Source: a virus. Taken from it: a DNA stretch of 49,998 bases. The DNA lies in the IMG/VR virus record IMGVR_UViG_3300042480_000096, positions 1-49,998 of that record. The stretch is one strand, 5' to 3'. A program made the translations under genes and the position numbers. The notes beneath the pieces are model-generated. The model ran no database searches. It saw only the letters and a program-made list of their open reading frames with translations, and was not told the origin of the DNA. Below, piece after piece: positions 2,557-48,600 of the stretch (the stretch's first letter is position 1; every line of letters starts with the position of its first letter).

Positions 2557-2564
2557 AATAAAAA

Positions 2565-2581
2565 ACCTCCATCACGGAGGT
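2565..2581 (-). terminator. hairpin terminator whose 3' arm is a Shine-Dalgarno
   Basis: ACCTCC, a five-base loop and GGAGGT, followed by a T run, end the nrd operon on the minus strand. The GGAGG arm is also the ribosome site of the gene at 2556 (nine-base spacing). Read-through RNA would have this SD paired. Confidence 0.75.
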
Positions 2582-2588
2582 ATTTATC
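2581..2588 (-). promoter_or_regulatory. late promoter GATAAATA
   Basis: GATAAATA matches seven of eight bases of the T4 late consensus. If it spans -13 to -6, transcription starts at 2575, just past the 5' arm of the adjoining hairpin, leaving the SD of the nuclease gene unpaired. It directly follows the TAG of the 40-codon gene. Confidence 0.6.
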
Positions 2589-8624: not shown

Positions 8625-9539
8625 TCATGCCGCAGTTACTGTTAGTGTTGCTGCGTCAGAGATAACTTCTTCGGCACCAGCAGATGATGTAAGTTTGACA
8701 CGATACTCATAACCATTAGCTGCTGTGGTAAGTCCAGTGAGAGCGAGTGAAGAACTCGTAGCACCAGAAACATTTGTCCAGCGAGCGGTGCTGCTTGTCT
8801 TACGCTGCCATTGGTAAGTAAGAGAACCAGTTGAAGCAGCAGCAGTAACCGAGAATGTAGCAGCAGCAGTAGCAACAGTAGCAACTGTAATTGTAAGATC
8901 GTTGGTTGTATCAACACCACCCAGAGCACTACCAAGAATAGTGATAGTTTCAGAAGCAGCATAACCAGAACCAGCGGCGGTTACTGTTACAGTGTAAACT
9001 CCACCAGCTCTTGCTACAGTAAATGTAGCGTTAGTTCCAGAACCAGAAGCCGTACCAGTTACTCCCGTGTATGAAGCTGTACCAGATGCTGCTGTTCCTG
9101 CGCGAGTAACAGTAAGAATTCCACCAGCAGGTGTTTGTGTTGACTGGTTAGCAGGTTGTACCGAGATAGTGATAGCAGATGCTACGTCAGCAGCAACAAC
9201 GTCATCAAGGTCAGCAGTATTAACAGGAGCATCTTTGAATGCTACTAGGTGCTGTGCTTTGTGGCGGGTCTTACCATCAGAATCAACATAAGTCATATAC
9301 TCCCACCAACCAGGAGCAGTTAAACCACGCTCTCTGTTTTCAGCAAGGGTTGCTTCTACGTCATCAATATAAACAGTTCTGCGAGCAGCAGTAGCATAAC
9401 CCTGAGCACCAGCAACTGTGCTGTCACCATCAACAATCAGGGTATTATCCCAGTCATACTTATCAACAGAGTTCTTCTCTGTGGTGTTTAGGACTGTCAA
9501 GCTTTGTGCGTTTGTTTCAGCGCGACTATACAGGGTCAT
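8625..9539 (-). CDS. virion protein with beta-rich and Ig-like domains
   Basis: A 304-residue probable structural protein. Residues 1-120 form a unique domain (PGWWEYMTY, HKAQHLVAF). About 152-223 is a Thr/Val/Gly/Ala-rich beta domain (RAGGVYTVTV, ITILGSALGG) closely matching one in tail sheath gp18 of this window. Residues 226-304 look like an Ig-like domain (TYQWQRK, GYEYRVKL). Ig-like domains on phage particles often bind surface sugars. Three late-promoter motifs and GGAG precede the ATG, fitting late expression. Head decoration, neck or fibre position cannot be decided. Confidence 0.75.
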   Translation of the reverse strand: MTLYSRAETNAQSLTVLNTTEKNSVDKYDWDNTLIVDGDSTVAGAQGYATAARRTVYIDDVEATLAENRERGLTAPGWWEYMTYVDSDGKTRHKAQHLVAFKDAPVNTADLDDVVAADVASAITISVQPANQSTQTPAGGILTVTRAGTAASGTASYTGVTGTASGSGTNATFTVARAGGVYTVTVTAAGSGYAASETITILGSALGGVDTTNDLTITVATVATAAATFSVTAAASTGSLTYQWQRKTSSTARWTNVSGATSSSLALTGLTTAANGYEYRVKLTSSAGAEEVISDAATLTVTAA

Positions 9540-9574: not shown

Positions 9575-9582
9575 TATTTATA
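9575..9582 (-). promoter_or_regulatory. late promoter TATAAATA
   Basis: A perfect match to the T4 late promoter TATAAATA on the minus strand, 35 bases upstream of the Ig-like protein gene and directly after a terminator. This is one of two exact consensus copies I found in the window. Confidence 0.8.
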
Positions 9583-9613
9583 AAAAAGGGAGACCCTATT
9601 TATGGTCTCCCTT
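9582..9613 (-). terminator. 10-bp hairpin terminator with late motif in the loop
   Basis: AAGGGAGACC (minus strand) pairs with GGTCTCCCTT around an 8-base loop and is followed by a T run: a classic intrinsic terminator for the 9757-11094 transcript. The loop holds the TAG of the 54-codon gene and CATAAATA (9597-9604), a late-promoter-like sequence. Confidence 0.88.
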
Positions 9614-11881: not shown

Positions 11882-13077
11882 TGCTTTTGTAGAGTGAAGT
11901 TGTTGTAAGCAAACTCCAGACGATTGACAAACTTAATCATACTACCGTCTTTATGAAGAACATATCCTTCAGGAGTTGTGACCTTATATCCTTTCTCGGT
12001 CTGAACAAAAGTTCTAAACTCTTCAAGATGGTCTAACTTATCTATAACCATTTGTTTGACTGCTTGTAGTTCTTTGTATAGAGCAATCATGGTCTTGAAT
12101 TTATAAACATTATCAAGAAGATAGTTCTCACTCTTGTAAACAAGATTACGTTTCTTTGTCAAGTTATCAACTGTCTTGATCTTGGCAAGTTCTTTACTCA
12201 TCTTATCATGATAGAAATTTACTAACTCGTTGATAGTCTCATCAATGTTACTGATACTACGAGCATTCTTGATCTCACTGTTGAAGAACTGTTTTAGATA
12301 AGAAGAGATGTGAAACTTAGCATCTCCTGTAGTTCCAAAGTTACTAACAAGATCGTCCAAGAAGTCTCCACATAACTGAGACATACGTTCAATCTTAGCA
12401 ACATACCTATCAAACCGCGCCATTTCTGACCTAGAAAACCCCACTCTATTCATTGGAGTATCATTGGCAATCACCGCTACTTCAGGAACTTTGTTGAACG
12501 TATTGATAGGAGCACCAGCTCGTGCTTGCATTTCTGCGAGCGAATCTCCAGTGTAGTGAGTATGAAATACTACACCAATTTTTGCTCTACCAACTTCTTT
12601 ACCAATATCGTGGTCAGTAGGGATGCCATAAGTAATAGTGTTTGGTCTAAATGTATAGAGTTGTTCTCCATCTACCGTCTCCGTGTGCCTAGTAGAATCC
12701 GTAAAAAGTAAGTCACCTTGGATGACACCTTTAATGCCCAACTTACTGAAATAACGTAAAGAGTATTTCAGTTTCTCTGCGAGATCACCTTCATAATAAG
12801 AATCAACTGCTTTTTCTGTAGCGCACAGTTTTGGTTCAGTTTTATTAAATACTGATTTAGTACCAACAAAAAATACTCCAGATAAAGGATCCACACCACA
12901 CACAACAGAAGGAGCTCCATCCCATTTGGTCTGCATAAACCCAGTGCTCTCTTGCTGTCCTAACATCTTTCTCAATTCCTTAAGGAAAGATACAGCTGCC
13001 TCACAACCCTCAACCCCATAGTTGAGCATCTCGTCTTCAAGGTGTTCTAAGTGCTTGAGTTGCTTGATGTTTGCCAT
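11872..13077 (-). CDS. ligase-like covalent nucleotidyltransferase (DUF6267-like)
   Basis: A 401-residue protein with signatures of the ATP/NAD-dependent ligase and capping-enzyme superfamily. TKWDGAP has a probable adenylated Lys51 (KxDG); VIQGDLLF (118-125) corresponds to motif III; PEGYVLH (about 366-372) and MIKFVN (about 379-384) correspond to the late lysine motifs. A long helical insertion (about 200-345) separates the motifs. I associate it with DUF6267 of cyanophages. It could be an RNA or DNA ligase, or may modify another acceptor. The partner nucleotidyltransferase overlaps its end. Confidence 0.7.
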   Translation of the reverse strand: MANIKQLKHLEHLEDEMLNYGVEGCEAAVSFLKELRKMLGQQESTGFMQTKWDGAPSVVCGVDPLSGVFFVGTKSVFNKTEPKLCATEKAVDSYYEGDLAEKLKYSLRYFSKLGIKGVIQGDLLFTDSTRHTETVDGEQLYTFRPNTITYGIPTDHDIGKEVGRAKIGVVFHTHYTGDSLAEMQARAGAPINTFNKVPEVAVIANDTPMNRVGFSRSEMARFDRYVAKIERMSQLCGDFLDDLVSNFGTTGDAKFHISSYLKQFFNSEIKNARSISNIDETINELVNFYHDKMSKELAKIKTVDNLTKKRNLVYKSENYLLDNVYKFKTMIALYKELQAVKQMVIDKLDHLEEFRTFVQTEKGYKVTTPEGYVLHKDGSMIKFVNRLEFAYNNFTLQKQWR

Positions 13078-13119
13078 CTATCTATAATACACAATTTTGG
13101 TTGGTTAGGAGGAAGCACA

Positions 13120-13139
13120 GGACAGTTCCAAAACTGTCC
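13120..13139 (-). other. 8-bp hairpin after the 499-residue gene
   Basis: GGACAGTT and AACTGTCC form a perfect stem with a 4-base loop directly after the stop at 13141. There is no U tract, so it is a weak terminator or an mRNA end protector. Confidence 0.5.
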
Positions 13140-13140
13140 A

Positions 13141-14640
13141 TCAGTCCATAAGTTTTACATGAACTGATGATTTGTCAGTTTGAGATCCAGCATAGCAATA
13201 TAGTGCTTTCATAATTTCATCTGCTTTTCCAGAAGTTAAAATACAATCCAATAACCGAAGACCCATCAATTTACTATATCTGTAAGATTGAGTTTGATTA
13301 GCAACTTCAGCTCTTGCTTGTACATCTCCAGGATATCCTGTTTTTGTATTTGTGCCACAATATTTACCAAGTAATTCAACTAGTTCATCATTAATACGAT
13401 CCTTCTTGGATTTATTTGTTGGTTTACAATCAGCCCAAAATGTTCTATTGTTCCAACCAGTTGTAATACCAGTATAAGATACATCGAGAGATTTTAAAAT
13501 TTCAACAATACTTCCACCACCACAACGACCCTGCGCCGCAGATGCTCCTTTCTTTTCTATCTGCCAAGAAGGAGATGATGCCCCACCAAAATTTCTTGAT
13601 TGAAATCTATCTGCGTCTCCGCCACCTTTTTTCCAATAAAGATAGACATCCATCGGGAAAGCATCTTCACCACCAACTAATCTAGTATCTTTGAACTTTA
13701 CCCAATATTGTCCCCACTTAACATCCTCCAGTTCTTTCATCTTATCATTTGGATCATAGTTCAAAACTTTTAGTTTTGCTGGCCCTTTTATTTTTTTCAG
13801 AGAAACACCAATTAGTTCTCTTTGTTCATATTTTTCTTTTATAAATTCGTTTATTGTGTCAACAGTTTTATGCTTATCCAAATCACTGGGATTGAATGTA
13901 GATGATACCATCCAGATATCTGCTGGATTCCATTTATCTTCGGAAGAAAAGATTACCCTAACATTGGGATCTTTCATCATGCTTCTTCTAGCCCGTTGAT
14001 ATGCTTTTTTAATTTCTTTATCGTCTGGTCCACCACCTCTACAAAAAATATAATTCTTACCAGAATTATGAAAGGTTTGCCACAATTTGTTTGCTCCTCT
14101 GATGGAAGATATTTGCCATTCTCTTGATAATTCATCTGGGAGCAATTGCTCAAAAGGCACATCAACATCAATTGTTCTTGATGCTTTCTCAAAATCACTC
14201 AAAGAAATGGGATGATCTTCATCTATTTCTCCTCTGTATACATTGAAAGCAAGGGCAGCATAAAGACATTGTGCCGCTTCATTTCTTGCTGTTTCAGCAG
14301 CTCCTCCTCCTGATCCACCACCTTCTGGTTTAATATCAATTCTTAAAGTTTTACTGCCAACAGCAATATCTAATTGGTTGCCAGTTCCTTTGGTATCAAC
14401 AGCACTATAACCCTTACTAGCAACATTTTGCGCGATCATAGATGCTGCTTTTGTTCTCTTTGCTCTCGGAACAATTACTTTAAGAGCAAAGAAAATTTTT
14501 GATCTGCCTGTAGGGTCGGCAATTTTTGTTACGTCAAAATTATAGAAAGAGAAATTTTCATCTCCCAAAGTATCCATAATATCACGAATTGCTTTTTTAT
14601 ATTCAGCACCAAATCCAGATAAATCTAATTGTTTAGTCAT
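13141..14640 (-). CDS. large unknown protein with possible PD-(D/E)XK core
   Basis: A 499-residue protein I cannot name. Asp91 in NQLDIAV and IDIK at 101-104, followed by a helix with EAAQCLYAAL, fit the order of a PD-(D/E)XK nuclease core. The Gly-rich loop (107-113) just after it is unusual. Another motif, DKWNPADIW (about 239-247), recurs in phage and viral proteins of unknown function. The start is preceded by GGGAGG nine bases away, inside a terminator hairpin that also holds a late promoter. A virion or DNA-processing role is possible; an enzyme is likelier than a scaffold. Confidence 0.55.
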   Translation of the reverse strand: MTKQLDLSGFGAEYKKAIRDIMDTLGDENFSFYNFDVTKIADPTGRSKIFFALKVIVPRAKRTKAASMIAQNVASKGYSAVDTKGTGNQLDIAVGSKTLRIDIKPEGGGSGGGAAETARNEAAQCLYAALAFNVYRGEIDEDHPISLSDFEKASRTIDVDVPFEQLLPDELSREWQISSIRGANKLWQTFHNSGKNYIFCRGGGPDDKEIKKAYQRARRSMMKDPNVRVIFSSEDKWNPADIWMVSSTFNPSDLDKHKTVDTINEFIKEKYEQRELIGVSLKKIKGPAKLKVLNYDPNDKMKELEDVKWGQYWVKFKDTRLVGGEDAFPMDVYLYWKKGGGDADRFQSRNFGGASSPSWQIEKKGASAAQGRCGGGSIVEILKSLDVSYTGITTGWNNRTFWADCKPTNKSKKDRINDELVELLGKYCGTNTKTGYPGDVQARAEVANQTQSYRYSKLMGLRLLDCILTSGKADEIMKALYCYAGSQTDKSSVHVKLMD

Positions 14641-14647
14641 AAGAAAA

Positions 14648-14677
14648 AACCTCCCTGCTAGTATTTAGAGGGAGGTT
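14648..14677 (-). terminator. terminator hairpin containing a promoter and an SD
   Basis: AACCTCCCT pairs with AGGGAGGTT (9 bp, 12-base loop) on the minus strand, followed by a T run. It lies between MazG and the 499-residue gene. The 3' arm provides GGGAGG as SD for the ATG at 14640 and the loop provides the late promoter CTAAATA. Confidence 0.85.
14662..14669 (-). promoter_or_regulatory. late promoter TCTAAATA in terminator loop
   Basis: TCTAAATA on the minus strand lies in the hairpin loop. Counting -6 at 14662, transcription would start at 14656, the first base of the 3' arm, so late RNA lacks the 5' arm and keeps a free SD. Confidence 0.6.
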
Positions 14678-14682
14678 GATAA

Positions 14683-15087
14683 TCAGAGGTCACCCTCTTC
14701 TCGGTTTTCACTATAGTAGATATCAAACTGACCACCAGGATATCGCTTTTCAAGCTTCTTAACATTTCGTTCGAGCACCTCTTCAAAAGAAACTCCAAGT
14801 GCTTGAGTTGCTTGAGCAACATACCACAGGAGATCACCAAGTTCAATAATCATATGCTCTCGGTTATCTTCGTTGAAAGGTTTGCCCTGGAAAATCATTT
14901 TCTTAATGATCTCAAGAAACTCACCACCTTCAGCATTAATACCGACGCCAGCAGTAAGCAGTCGTTCAATATTGGCACCCTTACGATCCAGCTCAACGAG
15001 ACGATCAGAAAGGGCAACAAAGTCTGTAGAAGCGTCTGAAGTAACAGCATCCACAAACTTTTCATAACGGGCAAAATCAATAGTCAT
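14683..15087 (-). CDS. mazG: MazG nucleotide pyrophosphohydrolase
   Basis: A 134-residue all-alpha NTP pyrophosphohydrolase. The metal-binding residues are in EGGEFLE (about 50-56) and ELGDLLWYV (about 83-91). MazG enzymes cut nucleoside triphosphates to monophosphates; in cyanophages a role in adjusting host alarmone or nucleotide pools has been proposed. The ATG at 15087 overlaps the gp41 stop (ATGA); a start 9 bases upstream is less likely. It is the last gene before the terminator at 14648. Confidence 0.88.
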   Translation of the reverse strand: MTIDFARYEKFVDAVTSDASTDFVALSDRLVELDRKGANIERLLTAGVGINAEGGEFLEIIKKMIFQGKPFNEDNREHMIIELGDLLWYVAQATQALGVSFEEVLERNVKKLEKRYPGGQFDIYYSENREEGDL

Positions 15088-16472
15088 ACATTCCACTCAG
15101 CAAATTTAGATAAACGGTTTTGGGTTTGGGCAAATTGGGCGAACTCTTCGCCAGGGTCTTCACTATCAATGCTGATAGCGGAAGCATCGTCTGCTACATC
15201 ATACAGCTTCATCTTCGCTCTGTCAATTCCCACCATGAATTTTCTAGAGGCAGTTGGGTCGTTGTATCGGTTTTTAAGTTGTTTGACCATGAGGCGACCT
15301 TGTTGTTCAAGCTCCTCAGTAGAGATAAGGGCAAACATAAAGTCAGCAGTGGCAGGAAGACCAAAAGACTCAGAAGTATCGGTAAGGTCAGGGTCACTAT
15401 TACCGTAACCACTACGAGTAGTTTGAGTAGCAGAGACAATTGGTACATTATGTTCCACAGCAAGACCGCGCAGCTCTTCAGCAATCGCTTTGACATACGT
15501 GTAAGAATTAACAATCGCACCCTTATACCTCGCGCTCGCACAAATGTTTAGATAATCCACAAAGATTATATCAGGTTTGAAATCTTTTTTCAAGGAAAGA
15601 TCTGAGAGTAATGCCTTGAAGTGTCCGACGTGAGCAGACGCTGTTGGGTACTCTTTGATGATAAGTTTGCCTCTAGTTTTTCTAGCGATCTCTTGTACCT
15701 TAGAAGTAAAGAGAACTTCAGGCAGTTCAGCAATATCTTTGACATTTACATTCAATAGGTTTGCGTCAATTCGCTCAGCAATTTTCTCCTCTGCCATTTC
15801 ACATGTAATGTAGAGAACGTTGTAGTTCTGAGTGAGGGCGGCAGCAGCCACATGGCACATGAATAGAGACTTCCCGACGCCCGTACCAGCAAGAGCGATG
15901 TTGAGAGTTTTGTTAGGGAGACCACCTTTCGTAATGAAGTTAAATTTATCAAGGTCAAACGGGATCTTTTCTTCTTTGCGGTGGTAGAAATCATAGCGGT
16001 CTTCTGCTTGTTCAATATAGTCGTGTCCTATGTGTTCGTCAAACGATACTGCCAGGGCCTCTTGTAAGATACTGGGGATCGCATCCTTTGATAGTTTTTT
16101 ATCACCTCCATCTGCGATCTTGATGGACCGCATGAGAGCGAGATAGATTGCTCTGTCTTGACACCACTTTTCTGTGGCATCGAGGAGCCAGTTGAAATCA
16201 ACCCACTCGTCTCCAAGGGACTTGAGGGTAGATAACGAACTCTGGAATGTGTCTTCTGTAAGATCGTTTCTAGATTGGAGGTTGATTGAGAGAACTTCTT
16301 GAGTAGGTACTTTGTCATACTTACTGGCGAAGTCAGCAACCTCTTCAAATAAGATGCGTTCATGATATTCGTTGAAATAATCTGCTTTTAGAAAGGGAAC
16401 TACCTTGCGGTAATACTCCTCGTTGAAGAGAAGATTACGCAAGATAGTTTCTTCGATACGTTCAATTGCCAT
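15084..16472 (-). CDS. 41: replicative DNA helicase (T4 gp41, DnaB family)
   Basis: A hexameric 5'-3' helicase that unwinds the fork and recruits primase gp61. About 462 residues, near T4 gp41 (475). The N-terminal helical domain (1-150) is followed by a RecA-type ATPase with Walker A AGTGVGKS and Walker B IIFVDYLN. The ATG at 16472 (MAIERIEE) is chosen over an upstream in-frame TTG. It overlaps uvsX by 11 bases and mazG by ATGA. Confidence 0.95.
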
Positions 16473-21096: not shown

Positions 21097-21120
21097 AAAA
21101 GGGGCACCGTCAAGTGCCCC
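21097..21120 (-). terminator. intrinsic terminator after hsp20
   Basis: GGGGCAC and GTGCCCC (7 bp, 6-base loop) are followed by a T run on the minus strand, just after the Hsp20 stop at 21127. Confidence 0.85.
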
Positions 21121-46723: not shown

Positions 46724-46948
46724 CTACCAATCTGGATATGACCAATTTGTATGATCTTTTTTTCTTGCTTCGATAATTCTTTTGACCGTACATGCTTTAC
46801 ATTCGTATGAATATGCTGACGGAAATGGTCTTTTGTTTTTTCTAATCAAATAGAAATCTGTAAGAAGGTCTTTTTCTTTGTGACAAGTTCTACACTTTCT
46901 CTCTTTAAAGATAAGATGTTCTAAAGAAAACTGATCTTCTAAGTCCAT
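46724..46948 (-). CDS. small zinc-ribbon protein
   Basis: A 74-residue basic protein with two cysteine pairs: KCRTCHKE (19-22) and YECKACTVKR (about 50-53). The spacing is like the zinc-binding half of recombination endonuclease VII or HNH proteins, but the catalytic His/Asn part is not evident, so it may be a remnant or a DNA-binding ribbon. The start overlaps the terminase stop (TAATG). It lies between gp17 and gp18. Confidence 0.65.
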   Translation of the reverse strand: MDLEDQFSLEHLIFKERKCRTCHKEKDLLTDFYLIRKNKRPFPSAYSYECKACTVKRIIEARKKDHTNWSYPDW

Positions 46949-48600
46949 TAGTAATTCCACATATAACTTACTTCTTCTTGAGTATTTCCATACTCCCATA
47001 AAGATCCATCGGCATCTATAAAACTATCATCGCCAAGTCCATCGTCAACAAAACCAAATGGCGCCATATCTTGTTCGATTTGATTTCTTTGTTCTTCGTA
47101 GATGCGACGACGAACATCCTGATCTGTCATCTCTTTGAAGTATTCTTGCATGACTAACCATGCAAAGAGAACCAAACACATCACAAGGTCATCATGATAT
47201 CCCTCGTCAGCTTCCCATGCCATCTTTTTCTGAATGAACGTGGTGAGCTCTTGTAGAATTTCGAAGTCACCAAAAGTTAGTTTATCTTCTTCGATAATTG
47301 CTTTGAGATTAGCGCAACCCAATTTCTTAACCGTCACACTCATCTTGACACCAAGTTGAGTTTTCATTCCAGAGAAACCTGTACCAACAATTTGCCCTGC
47401 TCTGCCACGCATCGCACACATTAATACGTTAGGATATTCTAGATCATAGTTCAAAGTGGCGGCAATACTATCACCAATATCGTTGACTTCTACTAGGATA
47501 TATGGTAAATTATATTCTTTCGCTACCTGTAAAATTACCGAGGGAAACAGTACAGGTTTAATTTCATTATTTCTGTACTTTGCCACGATCTTATACGGCA
47601 GTGTGGTGATATCAAACACGACGAAAGCACTATAGTCGCCACCAATTCCTCTGGCAACATCAACAGTAATAATGTATTCGTGATCTTTTTGTACTCTTTC
47701 GTGGATATCAAGTCCTGCATTGGATGTAATTGGGTCAGTAAATGGTATATTTTGAAGTTTTGCTGGACTGATTAGGGTATCAGCAGAACCAAGAAAGTCA
47801 CATTCAAATTCTTGTGCGAACTGTCTGGCAGAAGTATTCTTAAGGGTCTCTTCTTTCCACTTCGCATCTCTACCAGGAACCTGAGACCAATGAACCTCAT
47901 TCATTACATAACCATTCTTGCCGTTCTTGGCATCAATCCACATCTTGTAGAAGTGGTTCATACCATTTGGTGTTGAGATGATTATGACTTTCGTGCTCTT
48001 ACCAGAAGTAATAGTAGGATAAACAGAGGCAAAGAATTGCTCTGCAACATGGTTTGGAACGAAAGCGAATTCGTCGAGGAAGAGGATATTAAACGACATG
48101 CCTCTGACAGCAGACGCAGATGTAGAAGATGCCAGAATTTTTGATCCGTTTTCAAGTTCGACATTACCTTTGTTCCAAACAACTACACCATGCTGCATCC
48201 ACTTTGGTAGATTTTCATATGCTAGTTGAAGTCTGCTTAGGAGTTCCCTAGATGTTGAAGCTTTGTTAGCGAGAATACCAATATTAACGCTATCAAAGAA
48301 TATTGCGTAATAAAGCAGATAAGCAACAACCGTAGTGGATTTTCCAGTTTGTCTTGGGAGCTTTGCGATGTTAAATCTGTTTTCATGGAAGTCTTGTAAA
48401 ATCTTCTTCTGGAAATCATACATCTCAAATGGCACCAAACCTTCGTCTAGTGAGATAATCTTAATATAATTTTCAGCAAAATAGACTGGATCATTTTTAC
48501 ACTTGATCCATTCGTTGATTTGTTTTTTTGTAAATGATATTTGGGTTCCCGCTTTCTTTAGATTAGGATTACCCAAATATACATCAGTACCAGCTGCCAC
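46948..48600 (-). CDS. 17: terminase large subunit gp17
   Basis: The packaging motor that pumps DNA into the head and cuts it. 550 residues (T4: 610). ATPase domain: LPRQTGKST (81-89, Walker A), LFLDEF (173-178, Walker B). Nuclease domain: ITVDVARG (about 312), VEVNDIG and YHDDLVMCL with acidic metal ligands. The start is GTG with TAGG eight bases upstream. A late promoter lies 23 bases before it. Confidence 0.95.
   Translation of the reverse strand: MAAGTDVYLGNPNLKKAGTQISFTKKQINEWIKCKNDPVYFAENYIKIISLDEGLVPFEMYDFQKKILQDFHENRFNIAKLPRQTGKSTTVVAYLLYYAIFFDSVNIGILANKASTSRELLSRLQLAYENLPKWMQHGVVVWNKGNVELENGSKILASSTSASAVRGMSFNILFLDEFAFVPNHVAEQFFASVYPTITSGKSTKVIIISTPNGMNHFYKMWIDAKNGKNGYVMNEVHWSQVPGRDAKWKEETLKNTSARQFAQEFECDFLGSADTLISPAKLQNIPFTDPITSNAGLDIHERVQKDHEYIITVDVARGIGGDYSAFVVFDITTLPYKIVAKYRNNEIKPVLFPSVILQVAKEYNLPYILVEVNDIGDSIAATLNYDLEYPNVLMCAMRGRAGQIVGTGFSGMKTQLGVKMSVTVKKLGCANLKAIIEEDKLTFGDFEILQELTTFIQKKMAWEADEGYHDDLVMCLVLFAWLVMQEYFKEMTDQDVRRRIYEEQRNQIEQDMAPFGFVDDGLGDDSFIDADGSLWEYGNTQEEVSYMWNY

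Follow-up and report, generated by a model that had tools for sequence, protein, structure and literature searches.

The question raised by this locus is how a gene lying directly behind mazG, in what appears to be an early operon, could be kept silent early in infection and be expressed late. The locus is on the minus strand of the IMG/VR virus record IMGVR_UViG_3300042480_000096; the DNA analyzed, hereafter the window, is a virus record of 49,998 bases that is possibly a fragment. As seen in the table, a terminator-like hairpin, a putative late-promoter motif and a Shine-Dalgarno (SD) sequence are superimposed between mazG and a gene for a protein of 499 amino acids (aa). The stem begins 5 nucleotides (nt) downstream of the mazG stop codon (14685-14683), and the minus strand then reads AACCTCCCT-CTAAATACTAGC-AGGGAGGTT, followed by TTTT, CTT and the ATG at 14640. 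The 5' arm AACCTCCCT occupies positions 14677-14669 and the 3' arm AGGGAGGTT positions 14656-14648. When the sequence was read again, the stem, the T run, the late motif and the SD were all found at the minus-strand places given by a first-pass annotation of this DNA. That annotation had also put the late motif inside the loop; the 12-nt loop does contain CTAAATA, but TCTAAATA begins one base before it, with a T (14669) that ends the 5' arm.

Features of the window discussed in the text (positions count from the first base of the window)
Feature	Position	Strand	Remark
Terminator-like hairpin	14648..14677	-	9-bp perfect stem, 12-nt loop; 3 extra CTA/TAG pairs within
Late-promoter motif TCTAAATA	14662..14669	-	Positions -13 to -6; loop and final 5'-arm base
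Predicted late transcription start (+1)	14656	-	First 3'-arm base; arithmetic from the motif with T4 spacing
SD GGAGG	14650..14654	-	Within the 3' arm; 9 nt between SD and the A of the ATG
T6 run, U-tract of presumed terminator	14644..14649	-	First two T belong to the stem
499-aa gene behind the putative switch, phrog_1462	13141..14640	-	ATG starts at 14640
mazG, upstream gene	14683..15096	-	Comes after uvsX and a gp41-type helicase gene
Swapped interval	13078..14638	-	No detectable DNA similarity to IMG/VR contigs L084, L094, L080; flanks homologous
Second copy of the design	2557..2587	-	ATAAATA-CCTCC-GTGAT-GGAGG-TTTTTT-ATT before the ATG of a RusA-like resolvase gene (2218-2556); predicted +1 at 2575
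Third hairpin	9586..9613	-	ATAAATA in loop and T run; 46 nt before the ATG (9539) of a head-protein gene (8625-9539)

As expected of an intrinsic terminator, the sequence holds a GC-bearing stem with a U-tract directly after it. The hairpin has a predicted minimum free energy of -16.5 kcal/mol, compared with -6.0 ± 2.0 kcal/mol for shuffled sequences (n = 200), none of which was as low (z = -5.13). Pairing of CTA with TAG in the loop gives a folded stem of 12 bp that has one C bulged out and leaves a loop of 5 nt. In the predicted folds, the SD is paired in transcripts arriving from upstream, as in the T4 type of switch, and its mean unpaired probability rises from 0.00 in read-through RNA to 0.58 in an RNA starting at 14656. 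Given T4 spacing, such a late RNA would lack the 5' arm. The first-pass annotation had derived the same start at 14656, and the base is again reached when the T4 late box TATAAATA, which covers -13 to -6 according to excerpts of PMC1524935, is laid over the motif.

Judging from sequence and predicted folds, the locus probably carries a promoter placed within a terminator, acting as a switch that would be off early and on late. In such a switch, transcripts of uvsX, gp41 and mazG, which we infer to be early, would carry the complete hairpin, and most of them would halt at the U-tract; in those that read through, the SD would be locked within the 3' arm. Late in infection, a gp55-type RNA polymerase would recognize TCTAAATA in the loop and initiate at about 14656. 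Since the late RNA would lack the 5' arm, it could form neither the terminator nor the SD lock, and the 499-aa protein would then be made. The first-pass annotation had proposed this switch from the one locus; with the change in predicted SD accessibility, and with the same geometry recurring in relatives and before unrelated genes, it is the best-supported reading, if unproven.

This reading depends on TAAATA acting as a late-promoter box. Cyanomyoviruses use NATAAATA and encode homologues of gp55, gp33 and gp45 (PMC2984593, in excerpt). In eight complete cyanomyovirus genomes, TAAATA was found within 60 nt upstream of 205 of 893 open reading frames (ORFs) of at least 150 aa, compared with 40 to 68 for six hexamers of the same composition. 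Of 47 starts chosen from the ORF list of the window, 10 have the motif in the 60 nt before them, and these genes include terminase, sheath, portal, scaffold and a tail-tube gene. TAAATA is thus very probably a promoter box, and its late timing would follow from these gene classes and from T4. By itself, CTAAATA shows no enrichment in the window (11 observed against 7.6 expected; 14 of 100 shuffles reached that count), so what counts as evidence is the combination of parts and its conservation. The sigma-70-like promoters predicted for all phases of Microcystis phage Ma-LMM01 (PMC5780444, in excerpt) have no bearing on the TAAATA motif, and a limited literature search found no published start-site maps of marine cyanomyoviruses.

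Conservation of motif and stem in other cyanophages, the lack of which would have refuted the switch according to the first-pass annotation, was observed. The pattern CTAAATAN{0,10}GGAGG gave 10 matches in seven other cyanophage genomes and the reversed pattern none. By blastn, 498 phage records were similar to the region; seven were examined around mazG, and six of these (ACG-2014i, S-CAM4, ACG-2014j, S-WAM2, S-RSM4 and S-CAM1) keep the element there, with varying upstream genes. Relatives of the 499-aa gene were taken from 79 distinct IMG/VR loci of 332; one locus without a start in reach (L250) was dropped, and 51 distinct leaders were obtained, with start codons of homologues picked by rule and with L067, L207 and L208 nearly identical to the window. 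TAAATA begins 18 to 43 nt before the start in 50 of these 51 leaders. Motif, start-proximal hairpin and T run occur together in 27, the motif only in 23, neither in one, and a hairpin without the motif in none. Three kinds occur among the hairpins: the motif may lie inside the loop with GGAGG in the 3' arm, touch the 5' arm (AGAGGG-ATCATA-CCCTCT), or immediately precede the stem (GGGGAGT-AGA-ACTCCCC). These types, A, B and C, differ in sequence and share the same geometry.

The design is also found before other genes. Besides the copy at the resolvase gene, the window has a further hairpin before a head-protein gene that falls outside the start-proximal cut-off, with additional copies of TAAATA at 9580 and 9559. 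Leaders were then compared for a RusA-like resolvase (phrog_244) and a head-tail adaptor (phrog_211), using the best 80 loci of at least 599 and of 476 relatives, respectively. The resolvase gave 62 distinct leaders, 43 with both parts, 4 with the motif only and 15 with neither; the adaptor gave 29, after one partial was dropped, 28 with both parts and 1 with the motif only. In S-PM2, the leaders of both genes have the design. In the commonest resolvase type, motif and start are separated by five bases, all taken up by the 5' arm; ATAAATA-CCTCC-ATAT-GGAGG-TTTTTT is an example. Homologues in the three gene groups were chosen without regard to hairpins, and when the groups were pooled all 98 start-proximal hairpins carried the motif. 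The late RNA predicted from the motif nearest the gene would lose the whole 5' arm in 62 of the 98, half or more of it in 33, and less in 3. A similar element, CCTCCTAAG-TAAATA-TGCTTAGGAGG, was seen before a heme oxygenase-like gene at four loci (L046, L056, L062 and L082), with a Pfam match at L046 and the other proteins clustering with it.

To place these counts against chance, all terminator-like hairpins in eight genomes and the window were collected. There were 484, of which 46 were start-proximal, with an ATG that opens an ORF of 60 aa or more lying within 20 nt. TAAATA occurred in the hairpin or within 25 nt upstream of it in 18 of the 46, compared with 19 of the 438 others (Fisher p = 7e-11, with orthologues repeating, so that rows are not independent). 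Fourteen permuted hexamers occurred at 0 to 7 of the 46; the 7 belong to ATAAAT, which overlaps ATAAATA, and the others reached at most 2. In 15 of the 18 motif-bearing start-proximal hairpins, a motif places +1 in or past the 5' arm. A pattern scan of IMG/VR found at least 119 stretches with TAAATA. The reversed motif, TATTTA, matched 57 stretches and was not a clean control, since many of these precede ORFs with an HHI motif resembling homing endonucleases; two permuted hexamers were therefore added and gave 26 and 23 stretches, of which one and six, respectively, were also TAAATA matches. Among loci L127 to L183, many hairpins of the form CCTCC...TATTTATTATAAA...GGAGG-TTTTTTT-ATG stand right before HHI-motif ORFs that resemble HNH homing endonucleases.

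Several observations weigh against an early-off, late-on switch. Twenty-eight of the 46 start-proximal terminators have no TAAATA, and in three of the 18 that have it the sole motif lies upstream of an intact hairpin, so that the late RNA would retain the terminator; in this opposite arrangement (S-WAM2, Sf-CH11 and Syn9; loci L286, L312 and L342), the gene in Syn9 has a match to a minor coat family. Syn9, P-SSM2 and S-PM2 show no enrichment of the looser pattern TAAATAN{0,12}GGAGG (7 matches, compared with 5 read backwards). Sf-CH11 has no element at its mazG locus, S-PM2 has the motif without a start-proximal hairpin at the second ORF after mazG, and the element is absent before the adaptor gene in S-CAM1 and Syn9. 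The 499-aa gene family can do without the hairpin, since 23 of its 51 leaders have the motif and no start-proximal hairpin. SD locking is no general feature, because type B hairpins keep stem and T run but carry no SD in their 3' arm. The 15 resolvase leaders lacking both parts belong here as well, as do three resolvase hairpins without the motif that appear when the ATG-distance limit used for the 98 is lifted. Support from covariation is modest. Both sides changed in 4 of 9 pairs for the resolvase (31 of 43 leaders) and in 2 of 13 pairs for the adaptor (15 of 28 IMG/VR leaders, with S-PM2 and Sf-CH11), and of 500 shuffles 3 to 175 and 0 to 12, respectively, reached the observed value, depending on the measure. 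Finally, all leaders come from related phages, so the counts overstate independence.

Some of the start-proximal hairpins without the motif adjoin an apparent early -10 box. A repeated leader, aagaggcaacgctctgtgatata(c/a)t followed by hairpin, T run and ATG, was seen before different genes in S-RSM4, S-CAM1, Sf-CH11, S-PM2 and Syn9; in it the apparent -10 box abuts the start-proximal terminator, and its first bases are cut differently in some rows.

The logic of such a switch is itself already known from the T4 genes e, soc, 49 and the I-Tev genes. According to excerpts of PMC3014915, a hairpin covering the SD or the AUG keeps e, soc, 49 and I-TevI silent on transcripts from upstream, and for e and I-TevI the late promoters placed in the hairpin are documented to yield unlocked RNA (PMC3014915 and PMC2988022, in excerpt). 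The likeness to T4 e, soc, 49, I-TevI, I-TevII, I-TevIII and segB is that upstream transcripts would form a hairpin over the SD and that a late promoter is placed in or at the 5' arm, leaving the late RNA without this arm. The leader of T4 gene 49, another Holliday-junction enzyme, has the same order as the cyanophage element (TAAATA, 5' arm, loop, 3' arm, ATG). TAAATA is missing from the leaders of two other T4 starts, those of mobD and of the short form of 49. The phages and the genes differ, and the e, 49, segB and I-TevII leaders have no run of five or more T after the stem, whereas the cyanophage hairpin has a T run, which makes it a likely terminator.

These T4 leaders frame one alternative, namely, that the element is a translational lock only, with the T run incidental, little termination, and read-through RNA left untranslated. 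That four T4 leaders combine promoter and hairpin with no long T run, and that the lock is documented for e and I-TevI, speaks for this view. Nevertheless, all 98 hairpins have a T run behind them (4 or more T in 6), although by construction, since the hairpin finder required one, and type B hairpins keep stem and T run with no SD to lock. We consider a pure lock unlikely.

Compact packing would explain the overlap differently: a terminator of the mazG operon, with a late promoter and an SD squeezed into it, and no selected early-off function. Intergenic space in cyanomyoviruses is short, with a median of 6 bp in S-PM2d (PMC5931967, in excerpt), and the 23 leaders of the 499-aa family with the motif and no start-proximal hairpin fit this explanation. 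However, a terminator upstream of the promoter would suffice for packing, yet the U-tract sits between promoter and ATG. In 95 of the 98 hairpins, an RNA beginning at the predicted +1 would be missing half or more of the 5' arm, and the geometry is the same with the different hairpin sequences of types A, B and C and in T4 gene 49. Packing alone thus seems rather unlikely to account for the element.

Comparison with relatives added a second aspect of the locus. The homology of the window to contigs L084, L094 and L080 ends at 14638, 14638 and 14636, that is, at the start codon of the 499-aa gene, and returns at 13077, 13083 and 13078, at the start of the next gene. Upstream DNA (at most 394 bp compared) is 81 to 94% identical between each of these contigs and the window, the 400 bp downstream give no match, and the hairpin is kept in all three. 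L093, L207 and L209 run colinear with the window, and L114 shows partial similarity within the gene itself. The putative cargo behind the element was grouped for 119 elements (of the 119 listed scan matches, 7 without a downstream ORF of at least 60 aa were dropped, and six phage records and the window were added). They precede ten protein groups without blastp links, with 52, 35, 14, 4, 4, 3, 3, 2, 1 and 1 members; a few scan matches, such as the group of two, may be due to chance. One hairpin sequence was found before six protein groups. The swapped interval holds a member of group D0 in L094, one of group D2 in L080 and, in L084, a member of D1, the group of the 499-aa protein, without detectable DNA similarity. 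Where the upstream group was read as MazG-type, D0 followed in 11 cases, D1 in 8 and D2 in 3. In relatives, the putative switch fronts interchangeable genes and marks the exchange boundary; this gene swapping and the recurrence of the element at other genes are additions to what the first-pass annotation had proposed. An inverted repeat, GGACAGTTCCAAAACTGTCC, lies at 13120-13139, one base past the stop codon of the 499-aa gene, in the 3' part of the swapped interval.

Such exchange could mean that the element is kept mainly as a short shared homology, a recombination anchor for swapping cargo, with regulation secondary. Identical hairpins before up to six protein groups without blastp similarity, and homology that breaks at the start codon, would both be expected of an anchor. 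Base pairing is not needed for this purpose, yet stem, motif and T run persist in most resolvase and adaptor hairpins despite changed arm and loop sequences, and we regard an anchor as the principal role of the element as improbable. That an AT-rich motif fell into a terminator loop by chance, a view to which the lack of CTAAATA enrichment across the window might point, is in practice ruled out by the start-proximal enrichment, by the two permuted hexamers in IMG/VR and by the finding that none of the 98 hairpins lacks the motif.

The proteins behind the element were then compared with known families. Group D2 matches type II restriction enzyme profiles: with a limit of E = 1, nine of its 11 members matched the PADLOC REase_II profile (the best, L017, at E = 1.4e-10; L107 at 0.0013), and Pfam gave no match of note for the group. 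For D0 (phrog_8438), a structural model with a predicted local distance difference test (pLDDT) of 72 matched MspI in Foldseek (E = 5.7e-4; next row 0.53). The model aligned with HinP1I at Z = 8.8 (210 residues aligned, root mean square deviation 4.7), with MspI at Z = 7.5 and with SwaI at Z = 5.9, the first unrelated row being at Z = 4.8. This is suggestive of a restriction enzyme fold, PD-(D/E)XK, in D0, although Z values of 7 to 8 can arise by chance. The 499-aa protein of the window had no match in Pfam or PADLOC, and its structural matches in the PDB, mostly over residues 6-108, are nucleotidyltransferase- or RsfS-like (Z up to 9.5). A profile search of PDB sequences gave one row for it (E = 0.27), and its best rows in a viral library were mostly uncharacterized cyanophage proteins. 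The D1 family has invariant EDKWNPADIW and GxSLK motifs, which may be suggestive of a PD-(D/E)XK nuclease. A shared origin of D0, D1 and D2 was rejected at the sequence level, with hhalign profile probabilities below 1%. PADLOC found nothing in representatives of D3, D6, D8 and D9; behind a few elements stands a heme oxygenase (D4) or what reads from its sequence as a putative endonuclease (D5).

Two further phage systems resemble parts of the element. Expression of the T4-type nuclease genes mobE and segF may be limited by an intrinsic terminator at the gene's 5' end, and the one of mobE stops about 30% of transcripts (PMC2988022, in excerpt). Those terminators lie inside the coding 5' ends, whereas the cyanophage terminator stands before the ATG and holds a late promoter and an SD. 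Promoter-early stem-loop (PeSL) cassettes of T4-like phages (Arbiol 2010 and Comeau 2014, via excerpts of PMC4503421) join a composite promoter-terminator motif to gene shuffling, and here too a stem-loop stands at the boundary of exchanged genes. The promoter of a PeSL is early, whereas the cyanophage motif would be late and has a built-in SD; a consensus scan found no sigma-70-like minus-strand site between 14640 and 14700, the nearest lying inside the gene (14568-14539). PMC4503421 (in excerpt) judges PeSLs an unlikely explanation of one S-PM2 region. Elsewhere in the window, at 21101-21120 on the minus strand, a terminator-like GGGGCACTTGACGGTGCCCC-TTTTT with a -35-like TTGACG is what would be expected of an early PeSL-like element. 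The late promoters of Aeromonas phage Aeh1 share CTAAATA, from -12, and the excerpts of PMC1524935 describe no hairpin with them. The cyanophage element thus joins features of the T4 switches and of PeSLs. A limited literature search found no description of a late promoter within a start-proximal terminator in a cyanophage, which does not prove its absence.

Considering the switch together with gene exchange, we tentatively propose that cyanomyoviruses may have a late-only slot. This would be a movable element of terminator, promoter and SD that gates early read-through doubly, by a stop and a lock, and that also serves as an exchange point for unrelated genes, including restriction-enzyme-like ones, swapped from start codon to start codon. 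A new nuclease would then be silent in the early operon and turned on late. If true, this would explain how new genes, including stand-alone restriction-enzyme-like ones, are plugged into a conserved genome with the correct timing at once. It would also give a simple testable rule, by which a late promoter inside a terminator keeps dangerous or late genes silent in the early operons of large lytic phages. Late-only cargo can be sought through the signature of 30 to 60 bp, and the element itself, being small, is a candidate part for timing gene expression.

Other features of the window were also screened. No known RNA family reached its gathering score in the window (NsiR1 was below threshold, with E = 0.1 and 18 bits against a cut-off of 39), and no tRNA was found there. 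An endonuclease VII-like ORF of 91 aa (phrog_4723) lies at 46724-46999 on the minus strand, between the tail sheath and terminase genes of the window.

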